Origin: Massilia soli
GTDB taxonomy: Bacteria; Pseudomonadota; Gammaproteobacteria; Burkholderiales; Burkholderiaceae_D
Assembly (NCBI RefSeq): GCF_016809835.1
Contig: NZ_JAFBIL020000003.1
Coordinates: 248,001-312,000, forward strand
Direction: 5' to 3'
DNA length: 64,000 nucleotides
Shown: positions 4,915 to 11,313 of the stretch, one piece after another
Layout of the letters: every line of letters starts with the position of its first letter
Position numbering within the stretch: the stretch's first letter is position 1
The notes under the pieces: model-generated
Databases searched by the model: none
What the model was told of the DNA's origin: nothing
What the model saw: only the letters and a program-made list of their open reading frames with translations
Translations under genes and position numbers: made by a program

Positions 4915-5643
4915 ATGCGCGTGATGATCGTCGACGACGAAGAACTGGCACGCGGCGTTGTGCGCGAGTACCTCGGCGCGCACGCCGACGTCGAGATCGT
5001 GGCCGAATGCGCCAATGGGTTTGAAGCCGTCAAGGCGATCGCCGAGCTGGAGCCGGAGCTGGTCTTCCTAGACATCCAGATGCCCAAGCTTGACGGCTTT
5101 GAAGTGGTGGAGCTGGCGGGGCGCAAGGCGCGCTACATCTTCGTCACCGCGTATGACCAGTACGCGCTGAAGGCGTTTGAAATTCACGCCATCGACTACC
5201 TGCTCAAGCCTTTCAGCCAGAAGCGATTCGACGAAGCGCTGGCGCATGCCCGCTCCAGCCTGGGCAGCCAGCCCGGCCTTGCCGCGGCGATCAGCGAGGC
5301 ATCCCGGCGCGCCAAGCCGCTGGAGCGGGTGCTGATCCGCGACGGCGCCAAAGTCCACGTGATCGCAGCAGGTAAAATCGACTTCATCGAGGCGCAGGAC
5401 GACTACGTCAGCATCAGCGCGGAAGGCAAGGCGTGGCTCAAGACGCAGCGCCTGTCGGAACTGGAAAGCCAGCTCGATCCGCAGGCCTTCCTGCGCATCC
5501 ATCGCTCGTACATCGTCAACGTCGAACGCATCAGCCGCATCGAGCAGTCCGGAAAGGACAGCCACATGGCGATCCTGAAGGACGGCGCGCGCATTCCAAT
5601 CAGCCGCAGCGGCTACCAGAAGGTCAGGAACCTTATCCAGTGA
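4915..5643 (+). CDS. LytTR-family response regulator
   Basis: The 242-residue protein has an N-terminal receiver domain with acidic residues in MIVDDEE, phospho-acceptor Asp53 (FLDIQMPKLDGF), a conserved Thr (FVTAYD) and Lys (LLKPF). Residues about 140-242 form a LytTR DNA-binding domain (IDFIEAQDDYVSI, FLRIHRSYIVN, RIPISRSGYQKV). This is the AlgR/LytR class, which binds direct repeats in promoters. It ends the LiaI-LiaF-LytS operon. Its last 11 bases overlap the end of the convergent helicase gene. Confidence 0.95.
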   Translation: MRVMIVDDEELARGVVREYLGAHADVEIVAECANGFEAVKAIAELEPELVFLDIQMPKLDGFEVVELAGRKARYIFVTAYDQYALKAFEIHAIDYLLKPFSQKRFDEALAHARSSLGSQPGLAAAISEASRRAKPLERVLIRDGAKVHVIAAGKIDFIEAQDDYVSISAEGKAWLKTQRLSELESQLDPQAFLRIHRSYIVNVERISRIEQSGKDSHMAILKDGARIPISRSGYQKVRNLIQ

Positions 5644-7879
5644 GCTTCCACCAGCCGGGCAGCAGTTCGCTGACCTCGGGCTGGGCGAAGCGGTCATCGA
5701 TCAGATAGACCACGCCTTCATCCTGCTGCGTGCGGATCACCCGGCCCGCGGCCTGCACCACTTTCTGCATTCCGGGGTACAGGTAGGTGTAGTCGTATCC
5801 CGCACCGAACATCTCCTGCATCCGCTGCCTGAGCTGATCGTTGACAGCGTTCATCTGCGGCAGGCCGAGCGTGGCGATGAAGGCGCCGATCAGGCGCGCG
5901 CCGGGCAGGTCGATGCCTTCGCCGAACGATCCGCCCAGGACCGCGAAGCCAATCCCGCGGCTCTCCAGGGTAAATCGGCCAAGGAACTGCGCGCGCTCGT
6001 CTTCGTGCATGCGGCGCGCCTGCTGCCACGATGGTATGTCCTGGTGGCGCCGCGCCAGCTCCGCTGCGACCTGGTCCAGGTAATCGAAGCTGCTGAAGAA
6101 CGCCAGGTAGTTGCCAGGCGCCGCGTTGTACTGGCGCGCCATCAGGTCCGCGATCGGCGCTGCGGAGCGCGACCGGTGCTGGAACCTTGTCGAGATCTGG
6201 GTGACCACGTGCACTGCGAGCTGCTTGGCCTCGAACGGCGAGGCCACATCGACCCACGCGGTGCTGGCCGGCAGGCCGAGCAGGTCGCTGTAGTAGTGCC
6301 ACGGGCTGAGGGTGGCCGAGAACAGCGCGCTCGAATGGGCTACCGCGAAGCGCGGCTTCAGGAAAGGCGCGGGCACGATATTGCGGAGGCAAAGTTCGGT
6401 CGTGCGCGCATCGATGCGCGTGACGTCGAACAGCGAATGCGAACCGAATGATTCGGCCAGTTTCGCGAAGTGCAGCGCATCGAAGTAAAAGCGTTGCAGC
6501 GCCGGGTCCATCGGCCCCGGGTTTTCGGCCAGATGGTCGGTGATCGTGCTGCCGGCATTTTGCAGGGCCGCCAGCAGCTTGTCGGGCAGCTCGGGCAGCA
6601 CCTGATAGGGCGCGGTGATATCGCGGTCAAGCGCGGTCCAGCAGCGGCTCACCTTGTCGAGCGATTTCTTTACCAGTGCTGGCGCCGCCGCGCGGGCGGC
6701 GCGAAAGACCGCGCGATCCAGGCCGGCCGAGTACATCTTGCGCGCGCGCGACACCATGTTGTGCGCCTCGTCCACCAGCACGCTGACCTTCCATTGGTTG
6801 GCCAGCGTCAGGCCATACAGCATGCCGCCCAGGTCGAAGTAGTAGTTATAGTCGCCGATGATCACGTCGCTCCAGCGCGTCATTTCGCTGGCGAGGTAAT
6901 AAGGGCAGACATCGTGCGCCAGCGCGACGTCGCGCAACGCGGCCCGGTCAAGCGTGGGCGCCTGCACCGCCGCCGACCGGGCGGCTGGCAAACGGTCGTA
7001 GAAGCCTTTGGCGAGCGGGCACGACTCGCCATGGCAAGCCTTGTCCGGATGCTCGCAGGCCTTGTCGCGCGCGACCATCTCGAGCACCCGCAGCGGTATC
7101 ACCTTGCCGGACGTGCGGATGGTGTGGGTGGCGTCGAGCGCGAGCTGGCGGCCGGGCGTCTTGGCCGCCAGGTAAAACACTTTATCGAGCTGCTGCTGCG
7201 GCGCCGCCTTCAGCACCGGGAACAGGCTGCCGACGGTTTTGCCGATGCCGGTTGGCGCCTGCGCCAGCACGCAGCGGCCGCTGGTGTTGGCCTTGAAGAT
7301 GGTCTCGGCCAGGTCGCGCTGGCCGGGGCGGAATTCGGGGTAGGGGAATTGCAGCGTCGCCAGCGCGTCGTCGCGCGCCGCCCGGTGCGCCATCTCCTGC
7401 TGCGCCCACGCCACGAAGCGCTGGCACAGCTGCGCGAATATCTGCGCCAGCGATTCAGCCGACTGGGTTTCCCGCAGCACCGTTTCGGTCTGGCGGCCGA
7501 TGTCGAAGTAGACCAGCGCGAGGTTCACCTCCTTCATGCCCATCTGCTGGCACAGCAGGTGCCCGTAGACGCGCACCTGCGCCCAGTGCAGGTGGCGATG
7601 GTTGCCGGGCATCGACGCCAGATCGCCGCGATAGGTCTTGATCTCCTCGACCAGGTTCTGCTCCGGGTCGTAGCCGTCGGCGCGGCCGCGAACGTGCAGC
7701 GGCCCGTAGTCGCCCGACAGGCTGACCTCGGTGCGGTAGCTTGCGCCGCGCCGTCCTGTGACCAGCGCGTGGCCCTGGATGCCTTCCTGCGCGGTGGGCG
7801 AGGGCGTGAAGCGCAGGTCGAGGTCGCCCTGCTTGGCGGCGAACTCGCACAGTCCGCGCACGGCGACGACATAGCTCAC
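5633..7879 (-). CDS. Fe-S XPD/DinG-type DNA helicase with N-terminal PD-(D/E)XK-like domain
   Basis: Start GTG at 7879 overlaps the stop of the upstream nuclease gene (GTGA), so the two are translationally coupled. The 748-residue product begins with a RecB-like segment (GRADGYD... then EEIKTY, roughly residues 64-85), the D...ExK pattern of PD-(D/E)XK nucleases. The DEAD_2 helicase core follows: Walker A PTGIGKT with Lys214, four cysteines fit for a 4Fe-4S cluster (C275, C282, C287, C325), DEAH at 370-373, and C-terminal motifs GSFGEGIDLPG and QAAGRVIRTQQD. Family knowledge predicts 5'-3' unwinding of damaged or flap DNA. Nuclease activity of the N-domain is an inference. Confidence 0.9.
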   Translation of the reverse strand: MSYVVAVRGLCEFAAKQGDLDLRFTPSPTAQEGIQGHALVTGRRGASYRTEVSLSGDYGPLHVRGRADGYDPEQNLVEEIKTYRGDLASMPGNHRHLHWAQVRVYGHLLCQQMGMKEVNLALVYFDIGRQTETVLRETQSAESLAQIFAQLCQRFVAWAQQEMAHRAARDDALATLQFPYPEFRPGQRDLAETIFKANTSGRCVLAQAPTGIGKTVGSLFPVLKAAPQQQLDKVFYLAAKTPGRQLALDATHTIRTSGKVIPLRVLEMVARDKACEHPDKACHGESCPLAKGFYDRLPAARSAAVQAPTLDRAALRDVALAHDVCPYYLASEMTRWSDVIIGDYNYYFDLGGMLYGLTLANQWKVSVLVDEAHNMVSRARKMYSAGLDRAVFRAARAAAPALVKKSLDKVSRCWTALDRDITAPYQVLPELPDKLLAALQNAGSTITDHLAENPGPMDPALQRFYFDALHFAKLAESFGSHSLFDVTRIDARTTELCLRNIVPAPFLKPRFAVAHSSALFSATLSPWHYYSDLLGLPASTAWVDVASPFEAKQLAVHVVTQISTRFQHRSRSAAPIADLMARQYNAAPGNYLAFFSSFDYLDQVAAELARRHQDIPSWQQARRMHEDERAQFLGRFTLESRGIGFAVLGGSFGEGIDLPGARLIGAFIATLGLPQMNAVNDQLRQRMQEMFGAGYDYTYLYPGMQKVVQAAGRVIRTQQDEGVVYLIDDRFAQPEVSELLPGWWKLTG

Positions 7880-9525
7880 GCGCTGTGCTCCGCCCACTGG
7901 AGATAGCAGACCGAGATGGGCATCTGGTGCGCGGCGCAGTACTCGATCCAGCGCAGCTGGTTGTCCTGCAGCCGGTCCCCCGGACCCTTCACCTCGATCA
8001 TGTTGTAGCGCCGCTCGGCCGGCCAGAACTGGATCAGGTCGGGAAAGCCGGTGCGGTTGGACTTCACGTCGAGCAGGATGCGCTCGAACGATTTGCGCAG
8101 GTGCGACGCAGGGATGCAGGCCAGCGCGATGTCGAGCAGCTCCTCGCTGAGCGCTTCCCAGAACACGAACGGCGACTGCAGGCCGTGTTTCTCGGCGAAG
8201 GTGCGGCGGATCGTTTCGGTGTACTCGCCCGTGTCGAGCTGGTCGAGGCAGGCGCGGAACAGCGCTTCCCGGCGCAGGAAAAAGTCGGCGCTGAACAAGT
8301 CGGCCGGGCCGCGGTGGAACGGATGGAAGAACGCCCCGGGAATCGCGCAGAACACGGCTGGCCAGCAAAGCAGCCCGAACAGGCCGTTGATCAGCGCGTT
8401 CTCGACGTAGTAGACCGGTGCGTCCGCGCGCGCCAGGTGGTCGCGCACCACGCCTTCGACCCACCAGTCTTGCTGCGGCATCGGCAGGCACAGGTCAAGC
8501 CGCGTGACCGCCGGATTGCGGCGCGAGGCCGGCTTGACGTGGCCCAATTTGCGCGCCAGCCGCGGCGCGATACGCAGCAGTTGCTGGTGTTCGGCGTCGC
8601 TCTCCGGCGCCAGCCTGGCGGCCGACAGCAGCTCGAACGCTTCCTTGAACTGCTCGTTTTTCTCCAGCACGCGAATCGCGCGCGCACGCGCCCCGGGGAA
8701 GCTGCAGCGCGAATAGACGCGGTAGGCGTTGGGCCAGTCTTTCTGGCGCTCGCACTGCTGGCCGATCTGGAACAGCAAACGCGCGCGCCGGCTATTGAGC
8801 CAGTCGTTGTCGAACGGCGCCTCGGGCACTGCGCTCAGCACGTCTTCCAGCGGCTCGCTCGCCTCGAAACGCTCCTTGCAGCTGTGGAGTTCGAGGTAAT
8901 GGTCGATATCGCGGCGGGTCCGGAAGCCGCGCGAGGAGGCCGAGAACTCGACCTGTTCGTATTTATAGACACCGAGATCGGACAGCACGAACTCGGTCCA
9001 GTCCTGGCGCAGGTTGCCAAAGAAGATCAGGCGCAGGCGGTCGCACAGCGGCTTGACCATGATGTTGAAGACGGCGTCGCCCGAATCGCGGTACCAGCTT
9101 GAAAACGCGCGGGCGTCGCCGAAAGCGGCCCGCAAGGCTTCCAGCTGATCGGCCTTGCGGGCCTGTCTGGTGTGCTGGGACAGCCCGAAGACGGCGCAGA
9201 TTTCCGGCTTGGAGAGCAGCTCGAATAGCTGGTCGATGGTGATGACGGGATCGTGCTCGATCCAGCCGGTCGGCAGCAGCTTGCGCACCGCCTCGACGGT
9301 GCAGCCGATCTCGGCGTAACTGAGCTTGCTGGCACGGAAAAGGGTACCTTTGCGCATCACCATGCGGACGAACAAGGCACGCGACGCCTGCGGCAGCGCG
9401 GCAAACGCATCCATAAAGGCGCGCTCCTCGTCGGTCAGCAAATCGCTATAGCGTTCGCCGATCCATTCGAGCACCTGGTGAAAGTTGTCCAGGTAATAGA
9501 AGGGATTTTCAAGAACTTTGATCAT
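7876..9525 (-). CDS. VRR-NUC nuclease, bacterial FAN1-like
   Basis: The 549-residue protein starts at ATG 9525 (MIKVLENPFYYLDNF). It ends in a VRR-NUC domain with the full catalytic set: Asp496 in GFPDLIQFW, then Glu511 and Lys513 in MIEVKGPGDRLQDNQ. The N-terminal part contains a SAP-like helical region (SKPEICAVFGLSQHTRQARKADQL) and a TPR-like stretch, as in Pseudomonas FAN1. FAN1 enzymes incise 5' flaps and unhook interstrand crosslinks. The gene sits first in an operon with an Fe-S helicase and 48 bases downstream of a perfect LexA-type operator, so it is probably induced by DNA damage. Confidence 0.92.
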   Translation of the reverse strand: MIKVLENPFYYLDNFHQVLEWIGERYSDLLTDEERAFMDAFAALPQASRALFVRMVMRKGTLFRASKLSYAEIGCTVEAVRKLLPTGWIEHDPVITIDQLFELLSKPEICAVFGLSQHTRQARKADQLEALRAAFGDARAFSSWYRDSGDAVFNIMVKPLCDRLRLIFFGNLRQDWTEFVLSDLGVYKYEQVEFSASSRGFRTRRDIDHYLELHSCKERFEASEPLEDVLSAVPEAPFDNDWLNSRRARLLFQIGQQCERQKDWPNAYRVYSRCSFPGARARAIRVLEKNEQFKEAFELLSAARLAPESDAEHQQLLRIAPRLARKLGHVKPASRRNPAVTRLDLCLPMPQQDWWVEGVVRDHLARADAPVYYVENALINGLFGLLCWPAVFCAIPGAFFHPFHRGPADLFSADFFLRREALFRACLDQLDTGEYTETIRRTFAEKHGLQSPFVFWEALSEELLDIALACIPASHLRKSFERILLDVKSNRTGFPDLIQFWPAERRYNMIEVKGPGDRLQDNQLRWIEYCAAHQMPISVCYLQWAEHSA

Positions 9526-9572
9526 GGGGGACTGCCGGACTGGCCTGCTGGCCTGGCGCTAAAAACAGTGAT

Positions 9573-9592
9573 TACTGTGCATGCATACAGTA
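9573..9592 (-). promoter_or_regulatory. LexA-binding site (SOS box) of the FAN1-like/helicase operon
   Basis: The 20 bases fit TACTG-N10-CAGTA exactly, and the inner CTGT-N8-ACAG consensus also holds. A TATACT hexamer, a possible -10, overlaps its upstream edge at 9590-9595 on the minus strand. The start codon of the nuclease lies 48 bases downstream. This is the classical position for LexA repression. Confidence 0.85.
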
Positions 9593-9662
9593 TATCGCCA
9601 GTCAGCCCCAAGGCACAGGAAATTCGGCATTGCCCCGTGCGGAACGTGGCTTTTCCGGGTAT

Positions 9663-10415
9663 TTACGGCTCGGTCAACGGCTTCGGCGCGCATTTCTTTC
9701 CGACGCACGCCTCCTTTTCCAGCTGCGCGCGCTCGGCCGCATGGCGGGTCGAATGCGCAAGGATGGCGCTGATCAACGCGACATCGCTGTCAACTTCTGG
9801 CGCGCCCGACTGCGGCGCCTGTGTCGGCGTCTTTGTTTTTTTTGCGGCGGCAACGCGTGGCACTGGCTTGGCGGCCGGCACCTTGCTTGCCTTGGCGGCC
9901 TGGCGCGGCGCCGCAGCCGATCTGATCGGCGCGACTCTGGCGGCGGGCAACGCCGGGCTCACGCGCTCCTGCGGCGGCTGGGCCGCCACGGGGGGCTGCT
10001 CTTCCGGCTTGGCGATGTCGTCGCGCGGCAGCATGACCAGCGCCGGCTTGGCGGGCGCGGCAACCGCTGGTTCATCGACGATCATGGCCGCTTGCGGGGC
10101 CGGAATGCTGAACGACGGAACCGCCTGGCCGCGCATGCCGTCGTCAAGCGGCGCGGGTGCCTCGCGTTTGACTGCCGACGCTGGCAAGGCGCGCACACTG
10201 GTGGCGTTGCTGTAAGCGAGCCACGCGATCATCAGCGTCAGCAGCGCGGCCATCGAGCCGCCGATGATCAGCCAGCTTCGGTGCGCCCTCGTGCCGCTGG
10301 AGGAACCGCGCTCGAGCGACGCCAGGATGTTGTCCTCTGAAGCAGCCGAACGGCGCGAGGAAGACATAAGGTTCGGCCTTGTAGATCCGCTTTGATTTTC
10401 GTCTGAAGGGCGCAC
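9663..10415 (-). CDS. Single-pass membrane protein with Ala/Pro-rich periplasmic region, unknown function
   Basis: A GTG at 10415 is the preferred start because AGGAG lies seven bases upstream; ATG at 10367 and 10445 are in frame but have weaker sites. The 250-residue product has a short cytoplasmic N-terminus and one membrane helix (WLIIGGSMAALLTLMIAWLA). A long low-complexity Ala/Pro/Lys-rich stretch follows, then a small C-terminal segment with two cysteines (ACVGKKCAP). It is divergent from the TagX-like peptidase gene. A bitopic, TonB/TolA-like spacer shape is visible, but I do not recognise a family. A link to the adjacent T6SS is only by position. Confidence 0.7.
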   Translation of the reverse strand: MRPSDENQSGSTRPNLMSSSRRSAASEDNILASLERGSSSGTRAHRSWLIIGGSMAALLTLMIAWLAYSNATSVRALPASAVKREAPAPLDDGMRGQAVPSFSIPAPQAAMIVDEPAVAAPAKPALVMLPRDDIAKPEEQPPVAAQPPQERVSPALPAARVAPIRSAAAPRQAAKASKVPAAKPVPRVAAAKKTKTPTQAPQSGAPEVDSDVALISAILAHSTRHAAERAQLEKEACVGKKCAPKPLTEP

Positions 10416-10473
10416 GGTATAACTCCTATGATGGTGCTTCGCCATTCCGATTAGAAACAAACTGGGGAACTCG

Positions 10474-11313
10474 ATGCTGATCTTTATCGCATTTTTGTAC
10501 TTTTGTTTGGCCTGCAGCGCGATTTGGCTGGTCGTTTTTCCTTCGGGCAGGGAATTTGTTGCGCAGATCGTCAGCGGACGCTGGTCGCGCATCGATCAAC
10601 GCCTGTCCAGCTTGCACCAGGTGGGCGTGCGTGAGGTGGCCGAGTTACGGCATGGCACCGGGCGCCTGCTGTCGCGGCAGCTCAAATTCGCAAGGCGCAA
10701 TGCGCTCTGGCTTGGCGCCGGCCTGCTTGCCATCATTGTGCCGATGGTGGTGGTGCTGACCGTCGGCAAACCGGACGCGCTGCCTGGCTACGAATCGGCC
10801 GACCTGCCGCCGGATCCGAAAGTGCTCGCGTTGCTTGCCGGCGAAAACCTGGCCCCGCCGGCCGCGCTGCCGCCGATGGCGTTCAGCACGCGCGAAGTTG
10901 AACTGGTGCGCCCGATGCTGGTCACCGCCAGCCGCAACTGGGGCATGCTGCATCCGGACTTCCACCAGCGCCTGCTGATGGCCTTCAAGATCATGCGAGA
11001 AAAGCACGGTTACGAGATGGCGCTGCTGGAAGGCTACCGCAGCCCGGACCGCCAGAACCTGCTGGCCAGCATTGGCGCCCAGGTCACCAATGCGCGCGCT
11101 TTCCAGAGCTGGCACCAGTATGGACTGGCGGCCGACTGCGCATTCTGGCGCGATGGCAAGCTGATCATCTCGGAAAAGGACCCGTGGGCGATGCGCGGGT
11201 ACCGGCTCTACGGCGAAGTGGCCGAGTCGCTTGGCCTGACCTGGGGTGGGCGCTGGACAATGATGGACTTTGGCCACACCGAGCTGCGCGTCAAGGGAGT
11301 GATGCGCAAGTAA
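10474..11313 (+). CDS. M15-family peptidoglycan peptidase, TagX-like
   Basis: The 279-residue protein has two N-terminal membrane helices (about 3-24 and 76-96) and a C-terminal VanY/endolysin-type domain. The zinc ligands and motif are visible: SWHQYGLAADCAFW supplies His214 and Asp221, and FGHTEL supplies His268. EGYRSPDRQ is the usual upstream signature. Family members cut the peptidoglycan stem peptide. A membrane-anchored M15 enzyme next to T6SS genes matches TagX of Acinetobacter, which opens the cell wall for T6SS assembly. The gene lies 111 bases before tssM on the same strand, which supports that role (inference). Confidence 0.85.
   Translation: MLIFIAFLYFCLACSAIWLVVFPSGREFVAQIVSGRWSRIDQRLSSLHQVGVREVAELRHGTGRLLSRQLKFARRNALWLGAGLLAIIVPMVVVLTVGKPDALPGYESADLPPDPKVLALLAGENLAPPAALPPMAFSTREVELVRPMLVTASRNWGMLHPDFHQRLLMAFKIMREKHGYEMALLEGYRSPDRQNLLASIGAQVTNARAFQSWHQYGLAADCAFWRDGKLIISEKDPWAMRGYRLYGEVAESLGLTWGGRWTMMDFGHTELRVKGVMRK

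Follow-up and report, generated by a model that had tools for sequence, protein, structure and literature searches.

What sets the timing of production of bacterial FAN1, a nuclease, and which protein is its partner? The question is raised by a locus of Massilia soli that lies in a 64,000-nucleotide (nt) stretch of DNA (contig NZ_JAFBIL020000003.1, positions 248,001 to 312,000 of the forward strand; the window). There, a FAN1 gene is followed on the minus strand by the gene for an iron-sulfur (Fe-S) helicase and is preceded by a palindrome of the SOS-box type, the operator read by the repressor LexA. We put at about 0.86 the probability that this box is a working LexA operator, repressing the FAN1-helicase operon and released by DNA damage. 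The comparisons of sequence from which this is drawn also make it likely that damage turns on both genes together.

The box, TACTGTGCATGCATACAGTA at 9573-9592, is a perfect TACTGT-N8-ACAGTA palindrome. It is the sole site of the window with all 10 fixed letters of TACTG-N10-CAGTA, and the sole exact CTGT-N8-ACAG. A first-pass annotation, made from the letters of the window, had pointed to the exact TACTG-N10-CAGTA at this place, and both the sequence and a pattern scan bear it out; the position upstream of the VRR-NUC (FAN1) gene also stands, but the gap to the ATG is 47 nt (9526-9572) and not 48 as given. In the whole 4.99-megabase genome, about 0.07 perfect TACTGT-N8-ACAGTA sites would be expected from the base composition of the window, against nine distinct sites found.

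The same motif is present at the SOS genes of the host. The genome holds one match to LexA_DNA_bind, and a two-mismatch version of the motif lies 27 nt ahead of that lexA gene; one-mismatch versions lie ahead of recA, ruvC and priA, and between ssb and uvrA. Besides the one at FAN1, perfect sites lie ahead of the genes for an error-prone DnaE polymerase (L002, truncated at the edge of the locus), a DncV-like cyclase (L006), a C5 methylase (L005) and an S24 peptidase (L008), ahead of imuA (L003) and dinB (L004), and ahead of a radical SAM gene of the PA0069 family (L010). The ninth (L007) is near a gene without an assigned identity. Because perfect or near-perfect sites occur at the host lexA, recA and other SOS genes, the motif of the host LexA is that of the box; a different host motif is ruled out by the sites at lexA, recA, imuA, dinB and ruvC. 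In its operator type (CTGT-N8-ACAG), its closeness to a start codon and its agreement with the host lexA and recA sites, the box resembles the LexA/SOS regulon of beta- and gammaproteobacteria.

The box is also conserved. FAN1 loci were located by tblastn (145 loci, among them that of the window's genome, with a few genomes represented twice), and each was scored by the number of matching letters out of the eight of CTGT-N8-ACAG, with 7/8 as the threshold. The threshold was reached by 119 of the 145 loci, or by 120 in a scan covering slightly more positions. Among 41 named relatives, of which Massilia agrisoli (92%) and M. polaris (91%) come closest, the exact CTGT-N8-ACAG was present ahead of FAN1 in 39, starting 31-68 nt before the FAN1 start with the exception of L038 (162 nt) and L050 (114 nt). 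The helicase follows FAN1 in 40 of the 41 and was not found in the remaining one (L058). When the Pseudomonas locus (L059) was excluded, 39 of the 40 loci reached 7/8 and 38 matched all eight letters, compared with 1.9 and 0.06 in dinucleotide shuffles. As a control, 433 other long open reading frame (ORF) starts were picked mechanically from the same 40 loci; 40 of them (9%) reached 7/8 and two were exact. The spacer of the box is conserved as well, with an information content in the alignment of 1.1-1.8 bits versus 0.2-0.8 bits in the flanks.

Farther out, a draw of 398 genomes from the phylum contained FAN1 in 50. All seven of those in the window's order (families f1, f2 and f5) reached 7/8, as did 15 of the 16 in family f15, which is taken to be Pseudomonadaceae because the FAN1 fragment of its genome G508 is 93% identical to a solved FAN1 (Protein Data Bank chain).

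Whether the box serves the pair, and not merely the gene next to it, could be addressed in a genus (g39) in which the operon has come apart. The helicase was found in 78 of its 79 genomes and could be placed in 77 (G1187 was dropped, its contig ending inside the helicase). In 68 of the 77, FAN1 lies directly upstream of the helicase, and in nine the helicase stands apart from FAN1. Every linked locus that contains the FAN1 promoter carries the box at 7/8 or more (44/44; the other 24 of the 68 are too short to contain it). Among the split genomes, the helicase has a box of its own in seven of these nine and in nine of a separate set of ten; the sets have two genomes in common, and combined they give 14 of 17 split helicases with their own box at 7/8. 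Of the three failures, L207 and L255 keep a CTGG-N8-CCAG palindrome and L240 has nothing. FAN1 carries a box in all 13 of the 17 split genomes in which it was examined, and in those 13 the two genes are separated by at least about 200 kilobases (kb) or sit on different contigs. No helicase was found in the four regions fetched around a split FAN1, and no such site near the helicase in four linked genomes checked likewise.

In a tree of 90 helicase N-termini, the 17 split helicases form one clade (support 100/97) nested among linked ones; the tree does not include L218-L228, eleven helicase loci that are divergent or come from outside, and the joining of two long rows, L203 and L210, is flagged as doubtful. 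In the split clade the spacer of the box again holds more information (1.5 bits) than its flanks (0.8 and 0.5 bits; 14 rows), while the conservation of its half-sites is partly due to how the rows were selected. Since both genes carry separate boxes after the split, co-regulation, and not mere adjacency, appears to have been maintained, and a joint function of FAN1 and the helicase is supported by this clade. In G249, a genome of the window's order, FAN1 has an exact CTGT-N8-ACAG (L075, L305) but the 4.4 kb downstream contain no helicase, which may point to a second split.

A number of observations weigh against LexA control of the operon, or against its generality. Loose matches are not clearly in excess: with up to one mismatch to CTGT-N8-ACAG the window has 14 sites versus 15.8 in shuffles, with up to two mismatches to TACTG-N10-CAGTA it has 12 versus 7.3 expected (11 of 100 shuffles reach 12), and with up to three mismatches the whole genome has 409, fewer than the 822 of a reversed control pattern. 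The overlap with a possible -10 proposed in the first-pass annotation stands insofar as the hexamer TATACT overlaps the box, but a sigma-70 consensus scan returned no full promoter in 9400-9900. Two of the named relatives depart from the rule: L052 lacks the box (6/8), and L058 has a doubtful 7/8 and a short FAN1 frame too. The split clade is single and therefore reflects one event, so that its 14 helicase boxes are not independent, and 10 of the 68 linked operons likewise have a 7/8 site near the helicase, although eight of these are one shared stretch that we read as FAN1 coding sequence. In the phylum draw, 22 of the 27 FAN1 genomes outside the window's order and f15 fall below 7/8; of the five that reach it, only G308 is plausible, the two of f22 sharing an off-consensus site, G276 being degenerate and G274 looking like chance. 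Finally, in eight distant loci where FAN1 and the helicase are linked, L310 carries an exact box and L308 a weak site well upstream, and the contig of L311 holds almost no promoter.

The lexA promoters of 30 genomes, mostly ones without a FAN1 box, put the absences in context. As 25 of them reach 7/8, the lack of the box before many distant FAN1 genes is not simply a change of motif; those that do not reach it are G111 and G274, whose LexA is divergent, and three genomes of family f20. In f20, seven of eight FAN1 genes miss the 7-of-8 score, six loci (L078, L080, L082, L084, L086 and L089) share TGGAT-N2-ATGAACAGT ahead of FAN1, and some lexA promoters have sites with one altered half. The shared stretch may be a LexA box of which one half has decayed. 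It would be too simple to say that wherever the helicase goes the box goes too, since split FAN1 genes keep the box, distant pairs mostly lack it, and in one genome of the window's order, G019 (L219), the helicase is kept with no match to FAN1 and no box ahead of it. A second FAN1 of G035 (L172) was left out of the box scoring.

The order on the minus strand is box, FAN1, helicase (Table 1). The helicase begins at a GTG that shares 4 nt with the end of FAN1, stop codon included (GTGA). Homology backs this GTG, and the tblastn offsets in the close relatives L020-L022 (-1, -4 and -7) agree with it; the ORF list opens the frame at 8491.

Table 1. Features of the FAN1-helicase locus, in coordinates of the window
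Feature	Coordinates	Strand	Basis
Putative LexA operator (SOS box), TACTGTATGCATGCACAGTA as read on the minus strand	9573..9592	-	Sequence, pattern scans, conservation
Possible -10 hexamer TATACT, overlapping the operator	9589..9594	-	Read directly
Possible second, weaker LexA-like site, CTGTTTTTAGCGCCAG	9553..9568	-	One mismatch from CTGT-N8-ACAG
FAN1 homologue, 549 aa, FAN1_HTH + SAP + VRR_NUC	7876..9525	-	Pfam, structure match, residues
Fe-S (XPD/DinG-superfamily) helicase, 748 aa, with predicted N-terminal PD-(D/E)XK nuclease domain	5633..7879	-	Pfam, 9kqh, cysteines

The identity of the first protein, as given in the first-pass annotation, was confirmed on three counts. All three of its Pfam domains score above the cut-off (FAN1_HTH 132, SAP 56 and VRR_NUC 117 bits), and it matches a solved bacterial FAN1 (4r89/5y7g), with which it shares these domains and the conserved catalytic residues, over nearly its full length (E 2e-207, residues 5-544, 540 residues). 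We take that chain, which is listed as a FAN1 homologue only, to be the P. aeruginosa protein. In an alignment of 70 rows, which counts the window's own genome twice and leaves out L056 and L058 as short, E375, D496 and K513 are invariant and E511 is at least 90% conserved; these positions have a known catalytic role in PD-(D/E)XK enzymes. The FAN1 frames are short in L056 (Massilia sp. H-1, 298 aa) and L058 (Noviherbaspirillum denitrificans, 408 aa), as is the helicase frame of L056, owing either to sequencing errors or to decay. The VRR-NUC nuclease is common to eukaryotic FAN1, and human FAN1 chains were matched at E about 1e-23.

The second protein had been annotated as a Fe-S helicase, and this too is upheld, by Pfam (Helicase_C_2 and DEAD_2), by a solved relative and by its cysteines; what had been missed is a nuclease-like domain at its N-terminus. 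The motifs TGIGK, DEAH and QAAGRVIR and the cysteines C275, C282, C287 and C325, which suggest the Fe-S assignment, are invariant in 40 rows. Both Pfam domains and the four cysteines are held in common with the DinG and XPD/Rad3 Fe-S helicases. The first 190 residues match PDDEXK_1 at the cut-off (22 bits, E 1.7e-4), and the model of this region (mean predicted local distance difference test score, pLDDT, 89.4) resembles 9kqh, Cas4 (the match is SSO0001), RecE and Exo5. Across 25 sequences E78, E79, K81 and Q101 do not vary and D68 is at least 90% conserved, giving a putative D...ExK active site. The Finegoldia magna DinG (9kqh) is a full-length solved relative, aligning end to end, including the nuclease-like N-terminal domain. 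It has Ala aligned to D68, whereas this putative active-site Asp is nearly invariant in the family of the window's helicase, which may therefore be the catalytically complete form.

The protein is neither DinG of the E. coli type (NF008729, 79.9 bits versus a cut-off of 598) nor YoaA (82.2 bits versus 680). A separate true DinG was found in three of four genomes searched, all three of f15, and a further DinG-like gene of the window's genome scores below the cut-off. In PADLOC the helicase matches the 'type IV DinG' model (E 2.9e-117), a label that may wrongly tie this chromosomal family to CRISPR. FANCJ is a weak match (9ej9, E 2.6e-9). In eukaryotes, FAN1 belongs to the Fanconi crosslink pathway, in which FANCJ is the Fe-S helicase, and bacterial FAN1 has served in structural work as a proxy for the human enzyme. 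The system of the window would differ from that pathway in being under transcriptional control, and may parallel it in function.

A response of FAN1 to damage has been reported in P. aeruginosa. According to PMC12796719 (2026), PA1865 (FAN1) and PA1866, which may be the helicase, are induced by ultraviolet C (UV-C) and were placed outside the three known damage regulons, 15 SOS genes being counted as known in that species; PA1865 is up with ciprofloxacin and down with peroxide, and 'additional layers of regulation' are said to remain to be found. The same paper cites Gwon 2014 and Jin 2018 for a role of PA1865 in crosslink unhooking. In the near-sister G508, a LexA-type box, ATCTGTATGCATGAACAGTA, lies ahead of FAN1. 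By analogy with that genome, the box offers a candidate regulator for the induction of PA1865/PA1866. The literature searched, which took in few subscription papers, yielded none that puts FAN1 under the control of LexA, and a term search within PMC13114513 gave nothing either.

Taken with the agreement of the host motif, the conservation in sister species and the split operon, LexA control, which had been suggested from the palindrome, is well supported by sequence evidence. We infer the following course of events. In undamaged cells, a LexA dimer would bind the box, over the likely -10, and repress the FAN1-helicase operon. Upon DNA damage, RecA filaments would trigger the self-cleavage of LexA and the operon would be induced in the host. 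FAN1 and the helicase would then be co-transcribed and made from one message, the latter by way of the start-stop overlap, and would act jointly: FAN1 would incise at 5' flaps beside a block or a crosslink, the helicase would unwind 5' to 3', and the PD-(D/E)XK domain would trim the displaced strand. Crosslinks would be the natural substrate; as the purpose of the pair, their repair, which the first-pass annotation had proposed, is plausible by analogy with the activity known for related proteins.

On this last point there is a serious contender, to which we give somewhat less than even odds: that LexA controls the operon but the main job of the pair is another, namely the clearing of 5' flaps, stalled forks, R-loops or blocked ends left by damage of various sorts. 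Neither UV-C nor ciprofloxacin, which induce PA1865 according to PMC12796719, is mainly a crosslinker, the Cas4/RecE/Exo5 fold of the helicase's nuclease domain is suited to end trimming, and no mutant phenotype of the pair was found in the part of the literature searched; against this, the nuclease has as its nearest solved relative a bacterial FAN1, for which the same paper cites work on crosslink unhooking. Less well placed is the view that the two genes are neighbours by history only, the box serving FAN1 and the helicase being a passenger. In distant families FAN1 occurs without the helicase, which was found at E 1e-20 in none of 11 such genomes, and G019 has kept the helicase with neither a FAN1 match nor a box, but the boxes that 14 of 17 split helicases have of their own and the close linkage in 40 of 41 named relatives and eight distant pairs make this unlikely. 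That another S24-family repressor, such as one of a prophage or plasmid, is the main reader of the site is very improbable: the genome does encode at least one other S24 protein (L008), but the same motif precedes lexA, recA, imuA and dinB, and the species that conserve the box need not have any prophage in common. A chance LexA-like palindrome without a role, for which the commonness of loose matches in the window might speak, is hardly credible and is ruled out for the box by the genome-wide expectation, the presence of the exact core in all but two of the 41 named relatives and the rarity of such sites at other ORF starts (40/433 at 7/8, 2/433 at 8/8).

Close to the box, a second and weaker LexA-like site lies 22 nt (about two helical turns) away, of which L020 and L021 retain only part; it may be due to chance, one-mismatch sites being no commoner than in shuffles. 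Upstream of FAN1 on the same strand is an ORF of 309 aa (9663-10592), and the box sits in the gap between the two; a Pfam search with this ORF taken from an inner start (234 aa) gave no match. On the other side, a gene for a LytTR response regulator lies tail to tail with the helicase, overlapping it by 11 nt (5633-5643).

Some of the other perfect sites of the genome also stand before genes of interest. The one at L006 (1501-1520; contig C22:16215) is about 260 nt ahead of a gene for a DncV-like cyclic-nucleotide synthase (1779-2786; Pfam; PADLOC Cyclase, E 1e-125), which suggests a defence of the cyclic-oligonucleotide-based antiphage signalling system (CBASS) type under LexA control. The one at L005 (1501-1520; C11:923876) is about 70 nt ahead of a C5 cytosine methylase gene (1592-2641) whose product resembles type II methyltransferases. 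The sites of the DnaE polymerase (L002, C1:79639), the gene without assigned identity (L007, C22:96407) and the S24 peptidase gene (L008, C33:62850) are the identical 20 letters, TACTGTGTTTTTATACAGTA or its reverse complement, and the identical spacer may mean that a promoter was copied.

More broadly, we would give even odds to the proposal that beta- and gammaproteobacteria have a dedicated, LexA-switched branch of crosslink or blocked-end repair, composed of FAN1 and a nuclease-bearing Fe-S helicase other than DinG, in which selection keeps both genes in one regulon after their separation, and that the box is the regulator of PA1865/PA1866. The conservation of the box in genomes of Oxalobacteraceae and of the Pseudomonas type, and its occurrence at both genes where the operon has split, point to an SOS-controlled system of two proteins. 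The conserved box thus addresses when bacterial FAN1 may be made and with which partner, and the helicase-nuclease can be named as a candidate for that partner.

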